NCBI GenBank assembly: GCA_017937505.1
Contig: JAGBDL010000193.1
Location: 1 to 64,000, forward strand
From: Clostridia bacterium
Lineage (GTDB): Bacteria > Bacillota > Clostridia > Christensenellales > Aristaeellaceae
Direction: 5' to 3'
Length of the DNA stretch: 64,000 nucleotides
A model generated the notes under the pieces. That model made no database searches, had not been told where the DNA came from, and saw only the letters and a list, made by a program, of their open reading frames with translations. This document shows positions 48,716 to 60,770 of the stretch, piece after piece. Position 1 is the first letter of the stretch. Each line of letters starts with the position of its first letter. Made by a program: the position numbers and the translations under genes.

Positions 48716-51700
48716 TTATCTGGCGTAGTCCGTCAGGCCTACGTCGACGCTCAGAAGCGTCTGGCCGGACTTCAGCGCAATCGGCGCGCTCATACCCGTG
48801 TCCGGGTCAAGGTCGCTGTCGATCTCGCCCAGCGGCGCGCCGAAGCAGGAGGTCAGCGTGTCGCCCTCACGCGCGTCAAGCCGCAGCACATAGGTGCCCG
48901 GGCGCAGCGCGTCGAAGGCGTAGTAGCCATACCTGTCGCTCCTCGTCGTCGCAGCCTCCGTCATCGTGCCGTCCGCGTTCACGTACAGAAGCGTCAGCTG
49001 CACGTCCGGAATCAGCGGCTCCTTGTAATCCTGCAGGCCGTTGCCGTTTTTGTCGTGCCAGACCGTATCGCCGATCCTGCCGGGCAGGATGCCGCCCACG
49101 TTCAGGTTCTCTCTGGTCTCGCCCATGGCAAGCGTGATCGCGTTCGTCGCGCCCACGCTGCCGTCGACCACCGGCACGCAGGAGTCGCCGTCGCGGCCCG
49201 TGCAGTCGGTAAAGAGCATCTCGCTGCGAAGCGTGAAGCGCACGCCGTAGGTGCCCGCGCGCAGCCGTTCAAAGGCATAGCGGCCTTCGCTGTCCACCCG
49301 GGTTTCATCCAGCACCGTGCCGTCCGCGCTCAGCAGCTCGGCCTTCACGCCGGTCATCGCCGCTTCGCCCGCATCCATCGCGCCGTTCACGTTCGCGTCC
49401 TCAAACGCTCGTCCGGCGATCCGGCCTGCCAGCACCACGGGAACCGCGCCGGCCTGCTCAAACTCGCCCATCGCCAGCGTCACTTCGCCCGTCTCGCCCT
49501 CCAGGGCGTCCGCGTCCGTCATGTTCAGCGGCGCGCCGATCGCAAAGAACGCATCCTCGTCCAGCACATAGCGCAGACGGTAGGTGCCTGGGCGCAGCAT
49601 GTCAAAGCTGAACGCGCCCGTCCCGTCCGCGTGCGCCGTCGCCACGACGGTGCCGCCCTGCATGGCCGTCACCACCGCGCCCTCAAGGCCCGGCTCGTCC
49701 TCGCCGCATACACCGTCGCCGTTCTGGTCGATCGCCACGCGGCCCGCAATGCACGCCGGCACAATCGCGCCCACACAGAGGTTCTCCCTGCTCTCGCCCA
49801 TCGCCAGCGTGAACGCGCCGGTCTGCGCCGTATCGCTGTCCACATGGTCAATCGCGCTTTCGCCGCTGCGGGTGAAGATTCGTCCGCCCGGCAGCGTCAC
49901 GCGCAGCGCGTATTCGCCCTTGCGCACAAAGCCGATGGCATAGCCGCCGTCTTCGTCCGTCTCGGCGCTGGCCGCCGTCTCGCCGGTGGCGGCATTCACC
50001 AACTCCACCAGCGCGCCGCTCACGCCGTGTTCATTCTCATTCATGCGGCCGTCATAGGCGCTGTCCTCCCAGACCACGCCGCTCACCGTGCCCACGCCGA
50101 CCACGCCGACGTCGATGTCCGTTCGGCTGTCACCCGCGGCGACCGGCACAGAGGCCGTCGAGGCGGTGCGCGCGTTCTCCATCGGCACGCTGCTCACGCG
50201 GCGGGTTCCGACCGCCTGTCTGGCGAACGCATAGCCGTCCGGGAGCGCAAAGGTCAGCACCGCATCGCCCGGGGTCACGCCGTCAAAGCGGTACGCGCCC
50301 GTCTCATCGGTGACGGTGTCGAGCACGCGGCCCGCGTCGGCACCGCTCACCATCGTGAGCGTCGCCTGCACGTTCGCCATGCCCGTCTCCTCGTTGGCGC
50401 GCTTGCCGTCGTCGTCCTGATCGTACCACACCACGCCGCCCAGCGACGCCGTCTTCAGCGCGCCGATGCGCACATCCGTGATTGCGCCGCCCATCGCGAG
50501 CGTGCCCAGCGCGATCTCCGCGTCCGCCGCGCCGGTGCGCGCAGCCCGGGATTCGCCGCCCTCCGCCGTATACTGATAGCCGTCCGGGAGCGTCACGCGA
50601 AGTGCATAATCGCCCGGCATCAGCTGGTCAAACGTGAATTCGCCGCTGCGGATGGTCTGCCTGCCGGCGACCTCATCGCCGTTTTCGTCAATCAGCGTTA
50701 CCGTCGCGCCGCGCAGGCCGCTTTCCGACGCGCCCATCGCGCCGTCAAAGTCGCTGTCCTCCCAGACCAGACCGCTGATCGCACCCTGCGTCAGCAGGCC
50801 GTAGCCGATATTTTGCACCTGTACGCCGCCCAGCAGCGTGAACGCCTGCGAGTAGCCGCGGCCGTCGCGCTCGGTTTCAAGCGCCAGCGCGCCGCCCTCC
50901 TGTGCGCCGGAGAAGACATAGCCCTCCTGCGCGTCTACGCGCAGCTTGTAGGTGCCCGGCTTGAGGTGCTCAAAGGCGAAGCGGCCATCCACGCCCGTTT
51001 CCGTGCTCGCCAGGATATTCCTGCCCGCGCCGTCCATCAGGTGAACGCTCACGCCGCTCATCGGCGCCTCGCCCTCGTCCGGCAGTCTGTCGCCGCTGCG
51101 ATCCTCCCAGATCAGGCCGCTCAGGCTGCTCAGGCGCACCACGCCCGCGTTGGCCGTGGACGTCGCCTGGCCGCCGGTCACGGAGATCGTGCGCGTGCCG
51201 GAGACGTTTGTGTCGCTTTCCTGCACGCCGCCGCGCGTCGCCGTGCGCTCCGTGCCGGAGAAGCCGCAGCCCTCCTGCGCCGTGAAGCGGACGGTGTAGC
51301 GTCCGGGCGCAAGGCCCTCAAACGCGTAGCCGCCGTCCTCGCCCGGGCGCGTCTGCGCCGCGGTCTCGCCACTCTGATTCAGCAGCTCCACGAGCACATC
51401 CGGACAGGCCGACTCGCTCTCGTCGCGGTTCGCATCCGCATCGTCGTCGTAGAAGACCACGCCGGAGATGGAACCCGAGAGCATCGCGCCGATATAGCGC
51501 TCCTCATCGCCGCCCATGGTCAGCGTGAACGGCAGGCTGCGTCCGCTGGAGCTCGCGCTCTGGGGCACGCAGCTCACCGGATAATTCGTGCCGGCCGCAT
51601 TGATCTGTTTGGTTGCGCGCCACTGGCCCGGCAGCTGATAGGCGATCACATACTCGCCCGGGCTCACGCCCTCAAACACCGCCGTGCCCGCCGCATCCGT

Positions 51701-54700
51701 CGTATAGGCGATTTCCTCAGCATCCTCGCCGTTTTCCAGGCGGATCAGGGAAACCGTCGCGCCGGAGAGCAGTGCCTCGTACGCGCCCTTCTGGCCGTCG
51801 TACTGCGTGTCGCAGAAGACCGTCACCGTCAGCCTCGCCGGGATGGTCGCGCCCGCGTCGACCGACGCCACCGCCTCGCCCGGCTTGAGCGTGAACGTGC
51901 GCGTCGCACCGCTCTGCGACACCGCGCCGTACACGCTGGAATCCGCGCCATAGCGCGTGAACGCCCAGTCGCCGTCCAGCTCAAAGAGCACGCTGTATTC
52001 GCCTGCGCGCAGCGCCTCAAACGCATACGCGCCGTTTTCGTCCGTCACCGTCTCAGCAACGGTCCCGGTGTGTCCCTCGCTCGCCCTGAGCAGCGCTACG
52101 CGCACGCCGGAGAGCGCCCTGGCGCCCTCGGGAATCACGCCGTCGCCATCCTCATCCACGCGCACCGCGCCGTAGATCGCCGCGCTCTTTTCCAGCTCGA
52201 GCACGCCGAAGGCATGCGTGTCGCCCGCGCCCAGCTCGATCGTCCGGACGATCCTCCCGTCCTCCGCGTCCTGGCACAGGTATCCCTGCGGGATCTCGAT
52301 CGTCACCTCATAGGTGCCCGGCAGGATGCGGCTGAAGGCAAACTCGCCCATGCCGCCTGTCACCGCCACGATCGGCTCGTCGTCCGCGCCGGCGTTAAGC
52401 GCGCGCATCTCGACATTCAGGCCCGCAAAGCCGGTCATTTCGCCGCTCTCCACGCGCTCGAGCACTGCGCCGTCAATCTCCGCGGCGTAGATGCAGCCGA
52501 CATTCACGACGTAATCCGTGTGACTGCCGTCCATGCGCAGCACGCCGCTGGTGCCATAGCGCTTGTCCTCGACGGCGGAGATCCTGTGGCTGCTCTGCAG
52601 GCTGCCGCTGGAGAAGACCACGCTCTCGCCCGCGTCAAACTGCACGCGGTATTCGCCGCTGGAGATGGCGTCAAACGCATAGCGGCCGTCCGCGCCCGTG
52701 CGCGCCGTAGCGACCACGTCGCCGCCCAGCGTCAGCAGGGAGACCGTCATGCCCGCGTAGCGGCTCGTCTCCTGCGCGTCCATCACGCCGTTCGCGTTGC
52801 CATCGAAGAACGCCACGCCAGTAATCCGGCCGTCGCGGCCCGCGCTCACCGTCTCAAACAGGCCGTCGGCCTGCATGGTGAAGGCCTCCTCCGCCCGCGC
52901 GCTGCGCCTGAGCACCTGCGTCTGTCCGTCCGGCTCCGTCTGATAGACAAACATGCCCTCAAACACGCAGCTGGCGGCCATGTTCACGCTGCCCTGCGCG
53001 CTGGCCTGCACACTGAGCGTGACCTGGCCCGGCGTAAAGCCCGCGCCCGCCTCCTCTTTTCCGGTCGTATCGCTGATATACGTCACGCGAACCGCGCAGA
53101 TGTCGTCGCGCACATCATCCAGGCTGACCGCCGTCGGGCCGGAGAGCACGCCGGTCTCCCTCGCGTCGGAGGGCTGCCAGCCGCCGCCGTCCAGGCAGTA
53201 TTCCACACGCGCGCGGTATGCGCCGCCCGCCGCGTCGCCCGCGCCGGAGAGCACCACGCTGGCGATGTCGCTGCGCTCGCTGCCCGCCGCGCCGGCCTCA
53301 AGGGTCAGGGTCGGGGTCAGCAGCATCTCGGCGCCCTCGAGCGCACCGGTTTCCACGCTCAGCAGCGTCAGTCCCTGCTGCTGCGCGGCATAGAGCGCCT
53401 CGATCAGGTTCAGATCGCCGTCCTGCGGCACCTTCACCGCCGCCATCTGCACGGCCGTCACCTGACCGCCCTGCGTGAGATACGGCGCCACCTGCACCTC
53501 GCTTTGCGCCGGCACGCTCAGCGCATAGCCCGGCGCGGCCTTCGTCTGGCGCAGCACATACGCGCCCACCGGCACGGCCATCGGGTTCTGATACGCTTCC
53601 CCGCCCATCTCGAAGGCGAGCACGGTTTCGCCGGTGCTTTGGGAGACCAGCGCATAGGCGCCGCCCGGCACATGCGCGCCCGTGGCCGCGTCCACCGCGT
53701 CCAGCTTGAAGAAGCCCCTGTCGCTGGAGACCGCGCACTCAAGCGTCGTCATCTCTCCCGCGCGCAGCAGCACCTCATAGTAGGTTTCGTCCGCGGCAAA
53801 GCCCTCCGCGCTGCCCAGCTCGTGCAGATAATAGGTCGTGCCCTCGATCGCCGCAGGCAGCTTTGCGCTGGCGTTCCTGCCCTCGGCCATCTCCTGCGCC
53901 GTCACGTTCGCCCACAGCGTCGTCTGGCTGTCCGCGCTCGGATACGGCTTCATCTCGCCGTCTTCCATCGTGTACACGCCGTACTGGCCCGTCAGCGGCA
54001 CGACGTAGGTGCGCATCGCGCTGTCAAACGTCAGGCCCGTCTTGGCGACGGTCACCACCGCGTATTCCTCCAGCGGCACGCTGATCTCCGTCACCTCACC
54101 GCCCGTAACGTCTGCCGTGCGGCTCGCAGCGAGCGTATAGCCCTGCGGCATCTGCGTCTGGCGCAGCACATACGCGCCCGCTGCCAGACCGCCCGCGTAG
54201 AACGCGCCGTCCTGCATGGTCATCCCGATCACGGTGCCGTCCGCATCGGTCAGCTCAAAGCGGATCTGCGCCAAATCCTCGTCGCTCAGCCTGCCGCCCG
54301 TCAGGCGTACGCGCACGCCGCCCTTGTCATGAAGACAGGTCAGCGCCGCCTCGGTCTGCTTCGTGTTTTCCACGCTGAAGCGCACGGCCTCCGGCGCACG
54401 GCAGCCCAGCGCAAGCGTCTGCCCGTCGATCACAGCGGCATACTCACCCGCCGGCAGGCTCACGTCAGCCCTGCCGTTTTCATCCGTCGTCAGCATGACG
54501 CCCATATCCGTCAGCGAGCCGCTTTCCTCTGCGCGCTGTACGCTGACCTGCGCGCCCGCCACCGGCGCATAGACCGCGCCGCCGCTTTCATTCAGGCTCT
54601 GCATGCGCACGGTGAGCGACACGCTGCCATAGCGCTCGTGCACAACCGTCACACGCGCCGCCTCGCCGGCCTCTGCCGTCACGGACAGCTCCGCGGCCTT

Positions 54701-56491
54701 CGCGTGGCCCTGCGGCGCGTCGAGCGTCTCCACGATCACCTCGCCCGGGGTCAGCAGCGGGGAAACCGCCATGCCGTCCTCGTCGCAGGCCATTTCATAG
54801 CGCGCGCCGGCGCCGTCGGTCAGCTGATAGACCGCGCCCGCCGCAGGCGCGCCGTTTTCATCCACAGAAGAGAGCATCACGCGCGTGCGCTCGGAGGCAA
54901 ACACGATCGTCTCCTGCGCGGAGGGCAGCGTAAACACGCGCGATTCCGGCTGCACGCCAAGCCTTGCCGCATCGCCGTCCGTCATGCGCAGCGTGTATTC
55001 GCCGCTGAGCGCATCCACCGTGGCTGAGCCCAACGCCGACTCGATCTGCGCGACCGTCTCGCCGTCCGCGCGGCAAAGCGTCAGGCGGAGCGCGTCGTCC
55101 ATCGCCTCCTGTACGATTTCGCCCTGCTCGTCGAGGCGCTCAATCGCCAGGCCGAACGCCTGCTTTTCGCGCGTGAGCAGCTGAAGGCGCACCTGCGTCA
55201 CCTGACCCGCGCGCACCTCAAGCAGCAGATCGCCCGCCGCCTGCGCGTTCACCCCGCCGCATTCAACGCCGCCCAGCTGCACATCCTCATCAATCGTCAG
55301 CTCGGCCATGCGGTACACATCCTCCGGGAGCGCCTCGGAGACCGCCATGCCCTCCGCGTCGAGCGCGTACGGGCCGTAGCGCCTGCCCGTCGATTCGCTC
55401 ACGAGCGTCACGCTTCCGCCGTCCAGCGGCCGCTCGCAGTCCGCCGTCCATTCCACGCGGCCCGTCGCCTCCAGCGCGCTCAGCTCAATCACCGTCGTGG
55501 CGCCGCTCTCCACGATCATCTGGCCCTCGCTCACCGGCAGGATCACGTCCTCTGCGCCCTCATAGCTCAGGCGCACGCCGTAGGTTCCCTCCAGCAGAGA
55601 GGCCCTCGCCTGGCCCTGTGTGTCCGTCACCACGCTGATCACCGGATCGCTGAGGATCTCCATGCGCACGCCCTCGAGCGGACGCTCCCTGGTCTGCGCG
55701 TTTGCGTCGAGCACGGTCAGCTGCATGTTCAGCAGCACCGAGCCGGAGGCCGGGTGCTCAAAGGTGACGCGCGTGCGGCGCGCCGGGCTGACGGACACGA
55801 CCACGCCGTCCTGCGCCGCTTCGCCGCCGCTGACGCTGCGCGCTTCAAACGTGCCCTCGGGCAGCTCCACCTCGCGGACGGTATAGCGCTGCGCCTGCTC
55901 GCAGGTCAGCACCGCCTCGCCGTTTTCATCGGTTGTCATCGTGCGGCGCTCGCCGTCCTCGCCGGTCGCCTCCAGCACGACGCCCGCCACCGGCGTGCCC
56001 AGGGAATCCACGGCGCAGACCGCCAGCTGGCCGGCCATCGCGTTGCGCACCACGATCTCCCCGCCCGTCACCGGGATGAGCGTCTCGTCGTCAAAGAGAT
56101 ACCCCTGCGGCGCGCTCTCCTGACGCAGGTAGAATTCCGCGCCCTGCGGCAGCGTGAAGCGGGTCTCTCCCTCGCCCGTGCGGATGCGCATGGGCTCGCT
56201 GGGGTACAGCGGGTTTGCCCACGGGGTCAGCTCGCCCGTGCCGGAGAAGACATACACGCCAAACTCCGCGCCGGCCAGGGCGTTCACCTCCTGCACCTCG
56301 TCGCTGTCCGCGTCAAGGGCAAGGCCCTCCACACGCAGGCTGATGGTGCCCGCGACGCCCGACGCCTGCATGGCGGGAACGTAAATATAGTCGCCAAGGC
56401 GCTTTTCCTCCGCCGCGGCCGTCTGACCCTGGGCCAGCACAGCGCACAAAAGCAGCGCCGCGCCCTTTGCAATCGATCTCCTGTTCACCAT
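48716..56491 (-). CDS. Giant secreted protein with SpaA-like and SdrD_B-like repeats
   Basis: 2,591 residues. Residues 1-28 are a signal peptide (MVNRRSIAKGAALLLCAVLAQG then QTAAA). About 50-1220 contain many prealbumin-like/SpaA-type beta modules (TRFTLPQGAEFYLRQESAPQGYLFD; YVLRQTQMPQGYTLA; YVLRQTKAAPGYALS). About 1220-2591 are twelve SdrD_B-like modules of 105-120 residues, each with G-x-V-W/F-x-D-x-x-x-D-G, then YAFxxLxPGxYxLRV. The last ends GLTDYAR at the stop: there is no LPXTG, no membrane anchor and no SLH domain. The modules suggest a filamentous, Ca2+-rigid surface or matrix protein. ATG at 56491 after AAGGAG. It has its own promoter. Confidence 0.93.
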   Translation of the reverse strand: MVNRRSIAKGAALLLCAVLAQGQTAAAEEKRLGDYIYVPAMQASGVAGTISLRVEGLALDADSDEVQEVNALAGAEFGVYVFSGTGELTPWANPLYPSEPMRIRTGEGETRFTLPQGAEFYLRQESAPQGYLFDDETLIPVTGGEIVVRNAMAGQLAVCAVDSLGTPVAGVVLEATGEDGERRTMTTDENGEAVLTCEQAQRYTVREVELPEGTFEARSVSGGEAAQDGVVVSVSPARRTRVTFEHPASGSVLLNMQLTVLDANAQTRERPLEGVRMEILSDPVISVVTDTQGQARASLLEGTYGVRLSYEGAEDVILPVSEGQMIVESGATTVIELSALEATGRVEWTADCERPLDGGSVTLVSESTGRRYGPYALDAEGMAVSEALPEDVYRMAELTIDEDVQLGGVECGGVNAQAAGDLLLEVRAGQVTQVRLQLLTREKQAFGLAIERLDEQGEIVQEAMDDALRLTLCRADGETVAQIESALGSATVDALSGEYTLRMTDGDAARLGVQPESRVFTLPSAQETIVFASERTRVMLSSVDENGAPAAGAVYQLTDGAGARYEMACDEDGMAVSPLLTPGEVIVETLDAPQGHAKAAELSVTAEAGEAARVTVVHERYGSVSLTVRMQSLNESGGAVYAPVAGAQVSVQRAEESGSLTDMGVMLTTDENGRADVSLPAGEYAAVIDGQTLALGCRAPEAVRFSVENTKQTEAALTCLHDKGGVRVRLTGGRLSDEDLAQIRFELTDADGTVIGMTMQDGAFYAGGLAAGAYVLRQTQMPQGYTLAASRTADVTGGEVTEISVPLEEYAVVTVAKTGLTFDSAMRTYVVPLTGQYGVYTMEDGEMKPYPSADSQTTLWANVTAQEMAEGRNASAKLPAAIEGTTYYLHELGSAEGFAADETYYEVLLRAGEMTTLECAVSSDRGFFKLDAVDAATGAHVPGGAYALVSQSTGETVLAFEMGGEAYQNPMAVPVGAYVLRQTKAAPGYALSVPAQSEVQVAPYLTQGGQVTAVQMAAVKVPQDGDLNLIEALYAAQQQGLTLLSVETGALEGAEMLLTPTLTLEAGAAGSERSDIASVVLSGAGDAAGGAYRARVEYCLDGGGWQPSDARETGVLSGPTAVSLDDVRDDICAVRVTYISDTTGKEEAGAGFTPGQVTLSVQASAQGSVNMAASCVFEGMFVYQTEPDGQTQVLRRSARAEEAFTMQADGLFETVSAGRDGRITGVAFFDGNANGVMDAQETSRYAGMTVSLLTLGGDVVATARTGADGRYAFDAISSGEYRVQFDAGESVVFSSGSLQSSHRISAVEDKRYGTSGVLRMDGSHTDYVVNVGCIYAAEIDGAVLERVESGEMTGFAGLNVEMRALNAGADDEPIVAVTGGMGEFAFSRILPGTYEVTIEIPQGYLCQDAEDGRIVRTIELGAGDTHAFGVLELEKSAAIYGAVRVDEDGDGVIPEGARALSGVRVALLRASEGHTGTVAETVTDENGAYAFEALRAGEYSVLFELDGDWAFTRYGADSSVYGAVSQSGATRTFTLKPGEAVASVDAGATIPARLTVTVFCDTQYDGQKGAYEALLSGATVSLIRLENGEDAEEIAYTTDAAGTAVFEGVSPGEYVIAYQLPGQWRATKQINAAGTNYPVSCVPQSASSSGRSLPFTLTMGGDEERYIGAMLSGSISGVVFYDDDADANRDESESACPDVLVELLNQSGETAAQTRPGEDGGYAFEGLAPGRYTVRFTAQEGCGFSGTERTATRGGVQESDTNVSGTRTISVTGGQATSTANAGVVRLSSLSGLIWEDRSGDRLPDEGEAPMSGVSVHLMDGAGRNILASTETGVDGRFAFEHLKPGTYKLRVDAQEGYVFSGAQEGGALALETERDGRGYSQAFTLLGGVQVQNIGYGLLTQGAISGLVWEDSDFDGAMGASESGLRGATVTLIDENGDEVAGRQTIRSGEFTFDQLMPGDYALRVTLPDGYQYTAEGGESRAARTGAADAEIALGTLAMGGAITDVRIGALKTASLGGVVWYDQDDDGKRANEETGMANVQATLTMVSGADAGRVLDTVTDETGAYRFDGVTPGDAVLTFALPDGYAFARQAVGTRRVSSVPMENARTASTASVPVAAGDSRTDIDVGVVGVGTVSGVVWEDSAYDGRMNENEHGVSGALVELVNAATGETAASAETDEDGGYAIGFVRKGEYALRVTLPGGRIFTRSGESAIDHVDSDTAQTGAFTLAMGESRENLCVGAIVPACIAGRVAIDQNGDGVCGEDEPGLEGAVVTAMQGGTVVATAHADGTGAFSFDMLRPGTYRLRYVLDEDAFFAIGAPLNMTDADALEGETGEVTLAMGEFEQAGAVPVVLAGRIAGRAFEDANVNGAMDAGEAAMTGVKAELLSADGTVLDETRVDSEGRYAFERLRAGTYGVRFTLRSEMLFTDCTGRDGDSCVPVVDGSVGATNAITLAMGETRENLNVGGILPGRIGDTVWHDKNGNGLQDYKEPLIPDVQLTLLYVNADGTMTEAATTRSDRYGYYAFDALRPGTYVLRLDAREGDTLTSCFGAPLGEIDSDLDPDTGMSAPIALKSGQTLLSVDVGLTDYAR

Positions 56492-56550
56492 ATATCTCCT
56501 TCGCTGCAAAGCAGACTGCAAAATCAGCATAAGATTCCAGTATTCAATCA

Positions 56551-56579
56551 ATTTTAATCCATCTGGCGGGACTTGTCAA
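56551..56579 (-). promoter_or_regulatory. Promoter of the giant gene
   Basis: Minus strand TTGACA (56574-56579), 17-bp spacer, TAAAAT (56551-56556). Its -35 box overlaps that of the divergent promoter. Confidence 0.8.
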
Positions 56580-56601
56580 GAAAAGCGAATTGTGATATGC
56601 T
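56573..56601 (+). promoter_or_regulatory. Promoter of the thioesterase gene
   Basis: TTGTCA (56573-56578), 17-bp spacer, TATGCT (56596-56601). Confidence 0.7.
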
Positions 56602-56658: not shown

Positions 56659-57396
56659 ATGAACAGGCAATACAGTGAAACCTTCGTCGTGCGCGCGACG
56701 GACTGCGACGTGCAGCGCCGCATGCGCCCGGCCGCGCTCTTTGTCGCCATGCAGGAGGGCGGCGAGCGCCACGCGATCACCCTGGGCGCGGGCTACGACG
56801 CGATGATGGCGCGCGGTCTTTTTTTCGCGCTGACGCGCATCCACGTCCGCTTCGTGCGCGCGCCCCGCTGCGGCGAGCGCGTCGTGCACACCACCTGGCC
56901 CGGCGTGAGCAACCGCTTCTTCTGTCCGCGCTATCACACCTTCGCCCTGGAGGACGGCACGCCGCTGGCCTCCGCCGGCGCGCTGTGGGTGATGCTGGAT
57001 GTGAACAGCCGCAAGATCGTCAGCCCCAGCACAGTGGAGCTAAACTTCCCGGACACGTCCGGCATTCCCTCGCCCATTGACCTGCCCACGCGCCTGCCGC
57101 ACCTGGGTGAGACGACCGAGCGCTTCATCCGCACGCCGATGTACTCCGATTATGACGTCAACGGCCATGTGAACAACACGCGCTACATCGGCTTTCTGTG
57201 CGACGCGCTGGGGCACGAGGCGCTTGACGGCCATTACCTCGGCGACCTGGTCGCAGGCTATGAAAAGGAAATCCGCGAGCCGCGCCCGCTTTCGCTCTCC
57301 CTTTCCCGCGAGGGCGATCGCTTCACCTTCCTCATCGCCTCCGAAAGCGGCGAAAAGCACTTCGTCGCCGGCGGCACGTTGCGAAAGGAGGAATAA
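56659..57396 (+). CDS. Acyl-ACP thioesterase (FatA/FatB-like, double hotdog)
   Basis: 245-residue enzyme releasing fatty acids from acyl-ACP. N-terminal hotdog: YSETFVVRATDCDVQRRMRPAALFVAMQEGGERHA; C-terminal hotdog: TPMYSDYDVNGHVNNTRYIGFLCDAL, whose Asp-x-Asn-x-His-x-x-Asn pattern holds the catalytic residues of bacterial members. Start ATG with GGAGG seven bases upstream. Four bases separate its stop from the Nif11-like gene, so the two are co-translated. Confidence 0.93.
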   Translation: MNRQYSETFVVRATDCDVQRRMRPAALFVAMQEGGERHAITLGAGYDAMMARGLFFALTRIHVRFVRAPRCGERVVHTTWPGVSNRFFCPRYHTFALEDGTPLASAGALWVMLDVNSRKIVSPSTVELNFPDTSGIPSPIDLPTRLPHLGETTERFIRTPMYSDYDVNGHVNNTRYIGFLCDALGHEALDGHYLGDLVAGYEKEIREPRPLSLSLSREGDRFTFLIASESGEKHFVAGGTLRKEE

Positions 57397-57399
57397 GCC

Positions 57400-57675
57400 A
57401 TGAACGAAACCCTGCGAAAGCTCCGTGAACGCGCGCTTGCCGATCCCGCATTCCGTGCCGCGCTACTCAAAACCCGAGAGGCGGAGGATCCGCTGCTGGC
57501 CCTGTGCGAGTTTTCCACCGCCCACGGCTTTCCCCTGACGCTGGGCGACGTGATCTCCGACGGCGAGGAATTCTGCTGCAACCAAATGAAATCCACCAAC
57601 GGCGGCAACCCGATGCCCTACGACTGCTTCGGCTTTGACGACGAGTACGAGATGTTCTTCCTGTCCATTCTGTAA
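57400..57675 (+). CDS. Nif11-like small protein, possible RiPP precursor
   Basis: 91 residues. Residues 1-52 follow the Nif11 leader pattern: MNETLRKLRERALADPAFRA, a Leu/Ala helix, then FSTAHGFPLTLGDV. Gly68-Gly69 could be a leader cleavage site, leaving a 22-residue core that begins NPMPYDCFGFDDEYEM and ends FFLSIL. Cysteines are at 36, 59, 60 and 76. No modifying enzyme is adjacent. AAAGGAGGAATAAGCC precedes the ATG, inside the thioesterase stop region. It could equally be a non-RiPP Nif11 protein. Confidence 0.6.
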   Translation: MNETLRKLRERALADPAFRAALLKTREAEDPLLALCEFSTAHGFPLTLGDVISDGEEFCCNQMKSTNGGNPMPYDCFGFDDEYEMFFLSIL

Positions 57676-57688
57676 ACCTCACCACGCA

Positions 57689-57720
57689 AAAAGCGCACCC
57701 GATGACGGATGCGCTTTTGA
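57689..57720 (+). terminator. Terminator after the Nif11-like gene
   Basis: AAAAGCGCA (57689-57697) pairs with TGCGCTTTT (57710-57718), with an inner CCG/CGG; the tail is T-rich (GATTTTG). Confidence 0.85.
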
Positions 57721-59273: not shown

Positions 59274-60641
59274 TCACCGCCGCGCCGGCCTTCTCCAGCG
59301 CAGGAAGAAATAGGTCACCTCGATGATGCAGCAGGTCGTCCACCCCACAGGATAGCCAAAGCCCACCAGCAGCGGGGTGTTGGCAATCAAGCGGGTCACA
59401 ACGAACAGGTAAATCTGCCGGATGCCCACGAACGAGAGCAGCATGATGATCATCGGCCCCCGCGAATCTCCCCGTCCGCGGAGCGCGCCGGCGAGCACAT
59501 GGTTCACGCAGTTGCACAGCAGGAAGAAGCAATTGGCGCGGATAAAGAGCACGCCGTACGCGATGACGGATTCGTCCGGGGAAAACAGCCCCACCGCCGG
59601 CGCGGCAAACAGGCACAGCAGCGTCACAATGACGGCTGTCACGCCCACGGCCATGCTCACCGTGATCACCGTGCCCTGATTCGCCCGCTGCGCCTTGCCT
59701 GCGCCAATATTCTGGCTGACAAAGGTTGTGGCGGCCATCGCCATGCTCTGCATGGGCAGCATGACAAACTGATCCAGCTTGTTGTAGCAGCTCCAGCCCG
59801 CCATGCAGCTGGAACCGAAGAAATTGATGTAGGACTGAACGAACACATTGGAAAACGCCGTGATGACGGACTGAATGCCCGCCGGCAGGCCGATGGCAAA
59901 GATACTGCCCAGGATGGCGCGGTCGATCCGCAGATCGTGCCACGTCAGACGGTAGATGTCGTTTGAGCGGGTCAGCAGCGCCAGAATGAGCAGCGCGGAA
60001 ATGAGCTGGGAAATCACGGTGGCCCAGGCAACGCCCTCGATTCCGCAGTGGAAGCCCAGCACGAACAGCAAATCCAGCAGGATGTTCAGCACGCTGGTGA
60101 GCACCAGGAAATACAGCGGCCGCATGGTATCACCCACCGCCCGCAGGATGCCGCTGCCCATGTTGTAGATCAGCAGGCCGGAAATCCCGCCGATGTAGAT
60201 CCGCAGATAGGTCGTTGCCTCCCCGAAAACGTCCTCAGGCGTGGCCATGAAACGCAGCATGGGCCTGACCGCCGCCACGCCCGCCAGCGTAAACAGGATG
60301 CTCAGCACAAAGGTGGCCGCCATGGTGGTCTCGATGGCCTTGTGCAGCGCCTTCAGATTCCTGGCGCCGAAAGAATTGGCGATGACTACGCCTGCGCCGG
60401 TGGAGAAGCCGTTGAAAAAGAACACCATCATGTTGACGATCATGGTCGTGGAGCCCACCGCCGCCAGGGCCTAGGTGCCCACAAAGTTGCCTACAACGAT
60501 GGAGTCCACGGTGTTGTAGAGCATCTGGAAAACATTGCCCAGCATCAGCGGAAGGGCAAAGAGAATGATCTGCCGCGCAATGGAACCCTCCGTCATATTG
60601 CGGGCGGTTGTCTTTGCTGGAACGGCTGATGAACCTGCCAT
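59274..60641 (-). pseudogene. MATE efflux transporter interrupted by an in-frame TAG
   Basis: A full-length (456-codon) NorM/DinF-type MATE gene whose only fault is a TAG at 60471-60473. Before it the frame reads TEGSIARQIILFALPLMLGNVFQMLYNTVDSIVVGNFVGT (in parts); straight after it continues ALAAVGSTTMIVNMMVFFFNG. That is the standard MATE motif VGxFVGxxALAAVG with one residue (often E, Q or S) replaced by stop. All twelve membrane segments are otherwise present. GTG or ATG re-initiation downstream would lose the first helix. TAG serves as stop for the LacI gene, so recoding is unlikely; a recent nonsense mutation is likeliest. Confidence 0.87.
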
Positions 60642-60737
60642 GGTGCGCCTCGTCTCTTTCTTCCTGATGGTCACGTCCTGCGTATTGGAACCATTATAAA
60701 AAAACTTCCGGAAATTGTCAAATGCCGGGCGCAAACC

Positions 60738-60770
60738 CAAAACATCCCCGGTCCTTGCGGACCGGGGATG
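60738..60770 (-). terminator. Terminator of ppdK
   Basis: Perfect 12-bp stem CATCCCCGGTCC (60743-60754)/GGACCGGGGATG (60759-60770); leftward tail TTTTGGGTTTG. Confidence 0.85.

Follow-up and report, generated by a model that had tools for sequence, protein, structure and literature searches.

A Nif11-related small protein family of Clostridia that probably functions as the full-length protein and is encoded with an acyl-ACP thioesterase in one genus

Proteins with Nif11 leaders are routinely read as RiPP precursors, and the best-defined group for the present comparison, N11P (TIGR03798), is a subset of the Nif11 family PF07862. There are also RiPPs with an invariant core, which are cofactor-like or signal-like. 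Table 3 of PMC2887384 gives N11P a leader of 69 residues and a suffix of 23, and a passage of the same paper places a ELSDEELEAVAGG-type motif ahead of the core. Hydrophobic residues at positions -12, -7, and -4 are given as the C39 recognition pattern in a section of PMC10885120. According to PMC7726476, Os1348 may be active in its full-length form.

The gene described here lies in a window of 64,000 nucleotides, by which we mean the whole stretch of DNA that was analysed. An open reading frame at 57400-57675 on the forward strand, supported by the ORF list, the sequence itself, orthologues, and the family alignment, starts with ATG and encodes a small Nif11-like protein of 91 amino acids. 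A GG at residues 68-69 is followed by a tail of 22 residues, acidic and aromatic, with a net charge of -5 and a single Cys (C76). The sequence contains a strong ribosome-binding site, AAAGGAGG, at 57384-57391 (+), within the 3' end of the upstream thioesterase gene. We propose that this gut-bacterial small protein probably functions as such, rather than serving as raw material for a peptide product, because its tail is nearly constant from species to species and none of the modifying enzymes sought accompanies it. Directly 3' of the gene, at ~57684-57720, an inverted repeat accompanied by runs of A and T resembles a terminator; it was seen by eye and is absent from the scan output.

The gene is present in 19 of 28 same-genus genomes; together with the window's own genome, this makes 20 of 29, including all nine of high quality (completeness ≥90%, contamination ≤5%). 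These 19 genomes, along with pN/pS below 1 throughout, ruled out a chance open reading frame. Among the 20 genus sequences, substitutions accumulate more slowly in the tail than in the leader: mean amino acid identity is 0.82 over residues 57-91 vs 0.60 over residues 1-56, and pN/pS, uncorrected and with pS near saturation, is 0.17 for the former and 0.43 for the latter, with 0.09 over residues 61-76. For a view across the class Clostridia, we used an alignment of 35 members (A3), made up of 18 of 20 class-wide hits, 15 of the 20 genus sequences, and both L032 and G136; the excluded rows include G479, a duplicate of G628, and G736, whose frame is interrupted by a stop close to its start. Five residues (C36, S65, N67, G68, and D81) are invariant in all 35 members, and thus in 20/20 outside the genus. 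The tail is acidic in all 35, G69 is present in 33, and NGG or NGS in 34. On the forward strand of the window, the Cys36 codon lies at 57505-57507, the [KR]SxNGG hinge (residues 64-69) at 57589-57606, the acidic aromatic tail (residues 70-91) at 57607-57672, and the Asp81 codon at 57640-57642. The C39 recognition pattern is kept unevenly: positions -12, -7, and -4 are hydrophobic in 32, 20, and 7 of the 35 family members vs 18, 18, and 15 of 18 N11Ps. The family no longer has the acidic run at -10 to -8, and its ELxxVAGG export motif is degenerate.

The relationship to Nif11 is visible because a family profile was used; the single sequence and a typed consensus gave no such match. The window protein alone had no match in Pfam, including PF07862, and in NCBIfam matched only NF038399 (E 0.058), not TIGR03798; the typed family consensus yielded no PF07862 match and no TIGR03798 match at E≤0.1. 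Within the genus alignment, PF07862 was matched by 7 of 21 members (best 6.1e-5), and within the class-wide alignment by 18 of 35 at E≤1 (best 4.1e-5). One genome hit, G021, reached the PF07862 cut-off (24.3 bits; cut-off 23.8 bits). TIGR03798 was matched by 15 of 35 class-wide members at E≤1 (best 2e-4). Among ten members viewed in detail, the best TIGR03798 score was 18.6 bits, below the curated cut-off of 32.3 bits, and in some members the alignment runs to the last positions of the model (residues 3-69 on 4-68 of 68 in L007). When the family profile A3 was compared by hhalign with N11P-type precursors (19 of 21 matches used, same class), the match reached 96.0% (E 3.9e-9, 63 columns, residues 3-69), and the family GG fell exactly on the N11P cleavage GG. 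The controls, which were shuffles and a reversal rather than unrelated helical families, gave at most 1.2% for 50 column shuffles and 0.45% for the reversed alignment. Taken by part, the leader alone scored 92.9% and the tail alone 3.5%. Among PDB sequences, the profile matches the Nif11 protein 9zn4 best (E 0.013, positions 3-57). Judged by these profile comparisons, the N-terminal domain of the family can be considered Nif11-related.

Two AlphaFold2 models (mean pLDDT 77.9 and 76.8) predict helices at residues 3-14, 16-27, 31-41, and 48-63 or 48-64, then a low-confidence loop after the GG (69-80 or 72-79) and a last helix at ~80-90, within the tail. Based on hhalign and these models, we place the Nif11-like helical domain at approximately residues 3-56 (57406-57567, +), comprising the first three helices and the start of the fourth. 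With Foldseek, no PDB entry matched at E≤0.001, and none of the seven chains compared by VIA-align had a convincingly similar fold. Much of what the initial annotation had read from this frame alone stands: it is a real gene with a GG and a one-Cys tail, the leader is Nif11-style and predicted to be helical, and the GG site is in register with that of N11Ps. Its proposed check against Nif11 models gave no match for the window protein and PF07862 matches at E≤1 for 18 of the 35 family members.

Across the order, profile A1 (genus sequences) hit 3 of 396 genomes; class-wide, profile A2 (A1 plus L032 and G136) found 21 of 391 at E≤1e-15, the window's own genome included and two weak hits left uncounted; and in a phylum sample, profile A3 found 4 of 398, all of them the own genome or of the same class. 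Each of the 21 strong class-wide hits has one copy per genome, and the own genome has one match at E≤10. With the window protein as query, plasmids gave no match. With another family member as query, phage records gave a single match, MT836210.1 (2427-2717, L153), deposited as 'Bacteriophage sp.'; this is probably a bacterial contig because the family member adjoins ORFs that by eye are glycosidase-like and RuvX/IreB-like. The best reading of this distribution is an undescribed, mostly single-copy family of the class Clostridia.

We then ask whether enzymes that could mature the protein accompany it. The search covered a minority of maturase families, namely LanM, YcaO, SPASM/radical-SAM, and SCIFF maturases. 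Around the gene in 21 class-wide loci (flanks of 0.7-8.3 kb per side), own-genome queries for LanM, YcaO, radical-SAM, and SCIFF-maturase homologs gave no hit at E≤1e-4. Neighbor gene calls were greedy longest ORFs, which missed the small gene in some loci, and the enzyme search was repeated on raw DNA. Two of these loci have transporter genes: a C39-type ABC transporter 5.6 kb from the small gene in G820 and an ABC-transporter-like gene 1.7 kb away in G668. Across the 29 genus genomes, YcaO occurs in 3, LanM (DUF4135) in 2, C39 in 12, and SPASM proteins in 26; the counts for the nine high-quality genomes are 1, 1, 3, and 9. Where the small gene is present (20 genus genomes), C39 accompanies it in 9, and 11 (several incomplete) are without YcaO, LanM, and C39. 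Six high-quality genus genomes have 11 SPASM proteins, of which the 10 examined comprise six SCIFF maturases, one ACGX-system enzyme, and three unmatched at 1e-40; no SPASM protein other than the SCIFF maturase was found in G019 and G027. Near the SCIFF maturase, an ORF for the six-Cys SCIFF peptide is seen in four genus genomes (L154, L157, L160, and L162).

The window's own genome does contain a genuine Nif11 RiPP cluster, on a contig (C88; L047: 2264-17489) separate from that of the small gene. It encodes a LanM that scores 460.7 bits against a TIGR03897 cut-off of 304, two YcaO proteins, a C39 transporter, and two radical-SAM maturases, one of which is nearest to TIGR04064 (rSAM_nif11) and below its cut-off. 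Its precursors are a Nif11 protein with a Cys-rich tail, a double-Nif11 protein with GG and a Cys-rich tail, and a third Nif11 precursor. At L047:8618-8923, a tandem pair of Nif11 leader copies precedes a single GG and Cys-rich core in one reading frame. Counterparts of the cluster in G003 are spread over several contigs. We rejected the cluster as the maturation system of the small protein: its precursors have different leaders and tails, and YcaO (3/29) and LanM (2/29) are far rarer in the genus than the small gene (20/29).

These data bear on the main rival to an intact working protein, namely that the small protein is a conserved-core RiPP precursor, with a Nif11 leader cut after the GG, the fixed tail as its core, and an enzyme encoded elsewhere and so far unseen, perhaps an orphan of another kind (ATP-grasp, GNAT, P450, prenyl- or methyltransferase, or non-SPASM radical SAM). 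The hhalign match to N11Ps with GG on GG, the TIGR03798 alignments that extend to the end of the model, the flexible loop predicted behind a GG that is NGG or NGS in nearly all members, and the presence of a full Nif11 RiPP cluster in the same genome are all what a precursor would lead us to expect. Weighing against it, more than half of the gene-carrying genus genomes have none of YcaO, LanM, and C39 (with the incompleteness noted above), two have the SCIFF maturase as their sole SPASM protein, and none of the enzymes sought is near the gene in the 21 loci. Furthermore, GG cleavage needs neither an invariant Cys in the leader nor an invariant S(-5) and N(-3), all of which the family has. We therefore regard a conserved-core precursor as somewhat unlikely. 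The genome does encode RiPP enzymes away from this locus, which is where the initial annotation placed the maturase if the protein is a precursor. The precursor reading itself is disfavored by a tail conserved in all orthologs seen and by the scarcity of YcaO and LanM relative to the gene. Paralogs with variable tails, which it suggested looking for, were absent from the own genome. It had also named a conserved tail combined with an absence of RiPP enzymes from any genome as telling against a precursor; the first is what we see, while YcaO and LanM do occur in a few genus genomes.

The gene directly upstream (56659-57396, +; 245 aa) encodes an acyl-ACP thioesterase, as identified by PF01643 (8e-16), PF20791 (3.6e-12), and PDB 4gak (3e-18). 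A promoter-like site precedes it at 56573-56601 (+), with 9/12 consensus matches in a promoter scan, and is a consensus match only. In 20/20 genus loci, the thioesterase is directly upstream of the small gene, with -8 to +3 bases between its stop and the small-gene start; therefore, the pair is almost certainly co-translated in the genus, in agreement with the initial annotation. The thioesterase is present in 22 of 29 genus genomes, in one (G022) as a fragment at a contig end; of the 21 with a complete copy, G020 is the sole genome without the small gene. Both genes are found in all nine high-quality genomes. The thioesterases of the 20 loci are as little as ~51% identical. Among papers on Nif11 with thioesterase, none appears from title and abstract beginning to be about this gene pair.

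Two larger features flank the pair in the window. A MATE-family gene (named by eye) at 59274-60740 (-) is broken by one in-frame stop into ORFs of 394 and 89 codons, as the initial annotation noticed, and its counterpart in the relative L025 is open over 473 codons. On the other side, 48716-56551 (-) is a 2611-codon ORF that by eye resembles a repetitive surface protein with SdrD/SpaA-type repeats; an antisense frame there is also open, for 2108 codons.

The link to the thioesterase is seen within this genus only, and outside it, the neighborhoods of the small gene vary. Beyond the family itself, no protein cluster occurs in more than four of the 21 loci, and those four belong to one genus (g199); two neighbor clusters span three loci each. 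In two other lineages, a family member stands beside fatty-acid enzymes: in G661, FabF immediately precedes it on that strand at a distance of 49 bases (L120:8044-9607, -), and in G820, a hot-dog (4HBT-type) thioesterase lies two genes downstream (L117:8000-9645, +). With two of ~20 loci, these neighbors may have arisen by chance. A connection between Nif11 leaders and fatty-acid metabolism would not be outlandish for a RiPP either, since nostolysamides, in a passage of PMC13060382, are N11P-type peptides lipidated by GNATs.

The changing neighborhoods, together with the retention of the thioesterase without the small gene in G020, would fit a full-length housekeeping protein unrelated to the thioesterase, for which the genus operon is a convenient promoter only. 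We consider this improbable, because the (near-)overlap has been kept in every genus locus though the thioesterases have diverged so far, and FabF and the hot-dog thioesterase also count against it, unless they are there by chance. Least likely of all, and in our view very doubtful, is an unmodified double-glycine peptide whose tail a C39 transporter exports as a signal or bacteriocin-like peptide: the GG register, the mostly hydrophobic -12 position, C39 in 9 of the 20 gene-carrying genus genomes, and the C39-type transporter near the gene in G820 agree with it, but six of nine high-quality genus genomes are without C39, positions -7 and -4 are often not hydrophobic, and the tail is fixed, whereas signal peptides tend to diversify.

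Altogether, the explanation we tentatively prefer, as possible rather than established, is that of a previously undescribed Nif11-type family in Clostridia that works as a whole protein and, in this genus, is tied to the acyl-ACP thioesterase. A Nif11-type helical domain with the invariant C36 would be followed by the fixed [KR]SxNGG hinge and then by a C-terminal segment that is conserved, acidic, and amphipathic, and the protein would act intact, its tail neither cut off nor modified. In this genus, it would be made from the same message as the thioesterase and in near-fixed proportion to it, which makes a partner or modulator of the thioesterase its likeliest job; the hinge and acidic helix may be the element that contacts and binds the enzyme. 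Some observations run counter to an intact protein: the GG that falls on the N11P cleavage GG and the flexible loop predicted after it resemble a cleavable leader-core boundary, and the near-universal NGG/NGS, the transporter genes in G820 and G668, and the SPASM proteins in all high-quality genomes point the same way. The thioesterase partnership is likewise challenged by its confinement to this genus and by G020. A more specific version, to which we give low credence, is that a RiPP leader and its double-glycine boundary were frozen class-wide into a permanent protein with the SxNGG hinge and acidic tail helix as the working part, and that in this genus, the protein, being small and acidic, imitates acyl carrier protein, docking on the co-translated thioesterase and setting its activity. 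On this version, the FabF and hot-dog thioesterase neighbors in G661 and G820 would hint at a broader role in fatty-acid enzymes.

If leaders have indeed become ordinary proteins, a widespread fixed-tail family without a recurring maturase would keep producing false positives in RiPP mining. Alternatively, the family may mark a conserved-core peptide system with an unseen enzyme.

Among known systems, N11P resembles the small protein in its architecture, a Nif11-like helical leader of ~69 residues that ends in GG and is followed by a tail of 20-30 residues. The small protein's tail is fixed, whereas the N11P core varies within paralogous families; the small gene is also without the ELSDEELEAVAGG-type motif and without a maturase/transporter cluster, is present in one copy per genome, and scores below the TIGR03798 cut-off. 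SCIFF (TIGR03974) is comparable as a conserved-core Clostridial peptide, whose maturase and six-Cys peptide ORF are found in this genus too. SCIFF, however, has an adjacent radical-SAM/SPASM maturase, and none adjoins the small gene in the 21 loci searched with own-genome queries. Os1348 of Pseudomonas sp. Os17 (NHLP clan, NF038399) is likewise a small, helical, precursor-like protein, with a weak match over helix 1 (E 0.021-0.058; best score 14.9 bits among ten members viewed in detail, cut-off 40 bits), but it has adjacent GNAT and other modification genes. Finally, the Nif11 domain proteins (PF07862; PDB 9zn4) are like the N-terminal domain of the small protein, which adds to it a conserved hinge, an acidic tail, and an invariant Cys.
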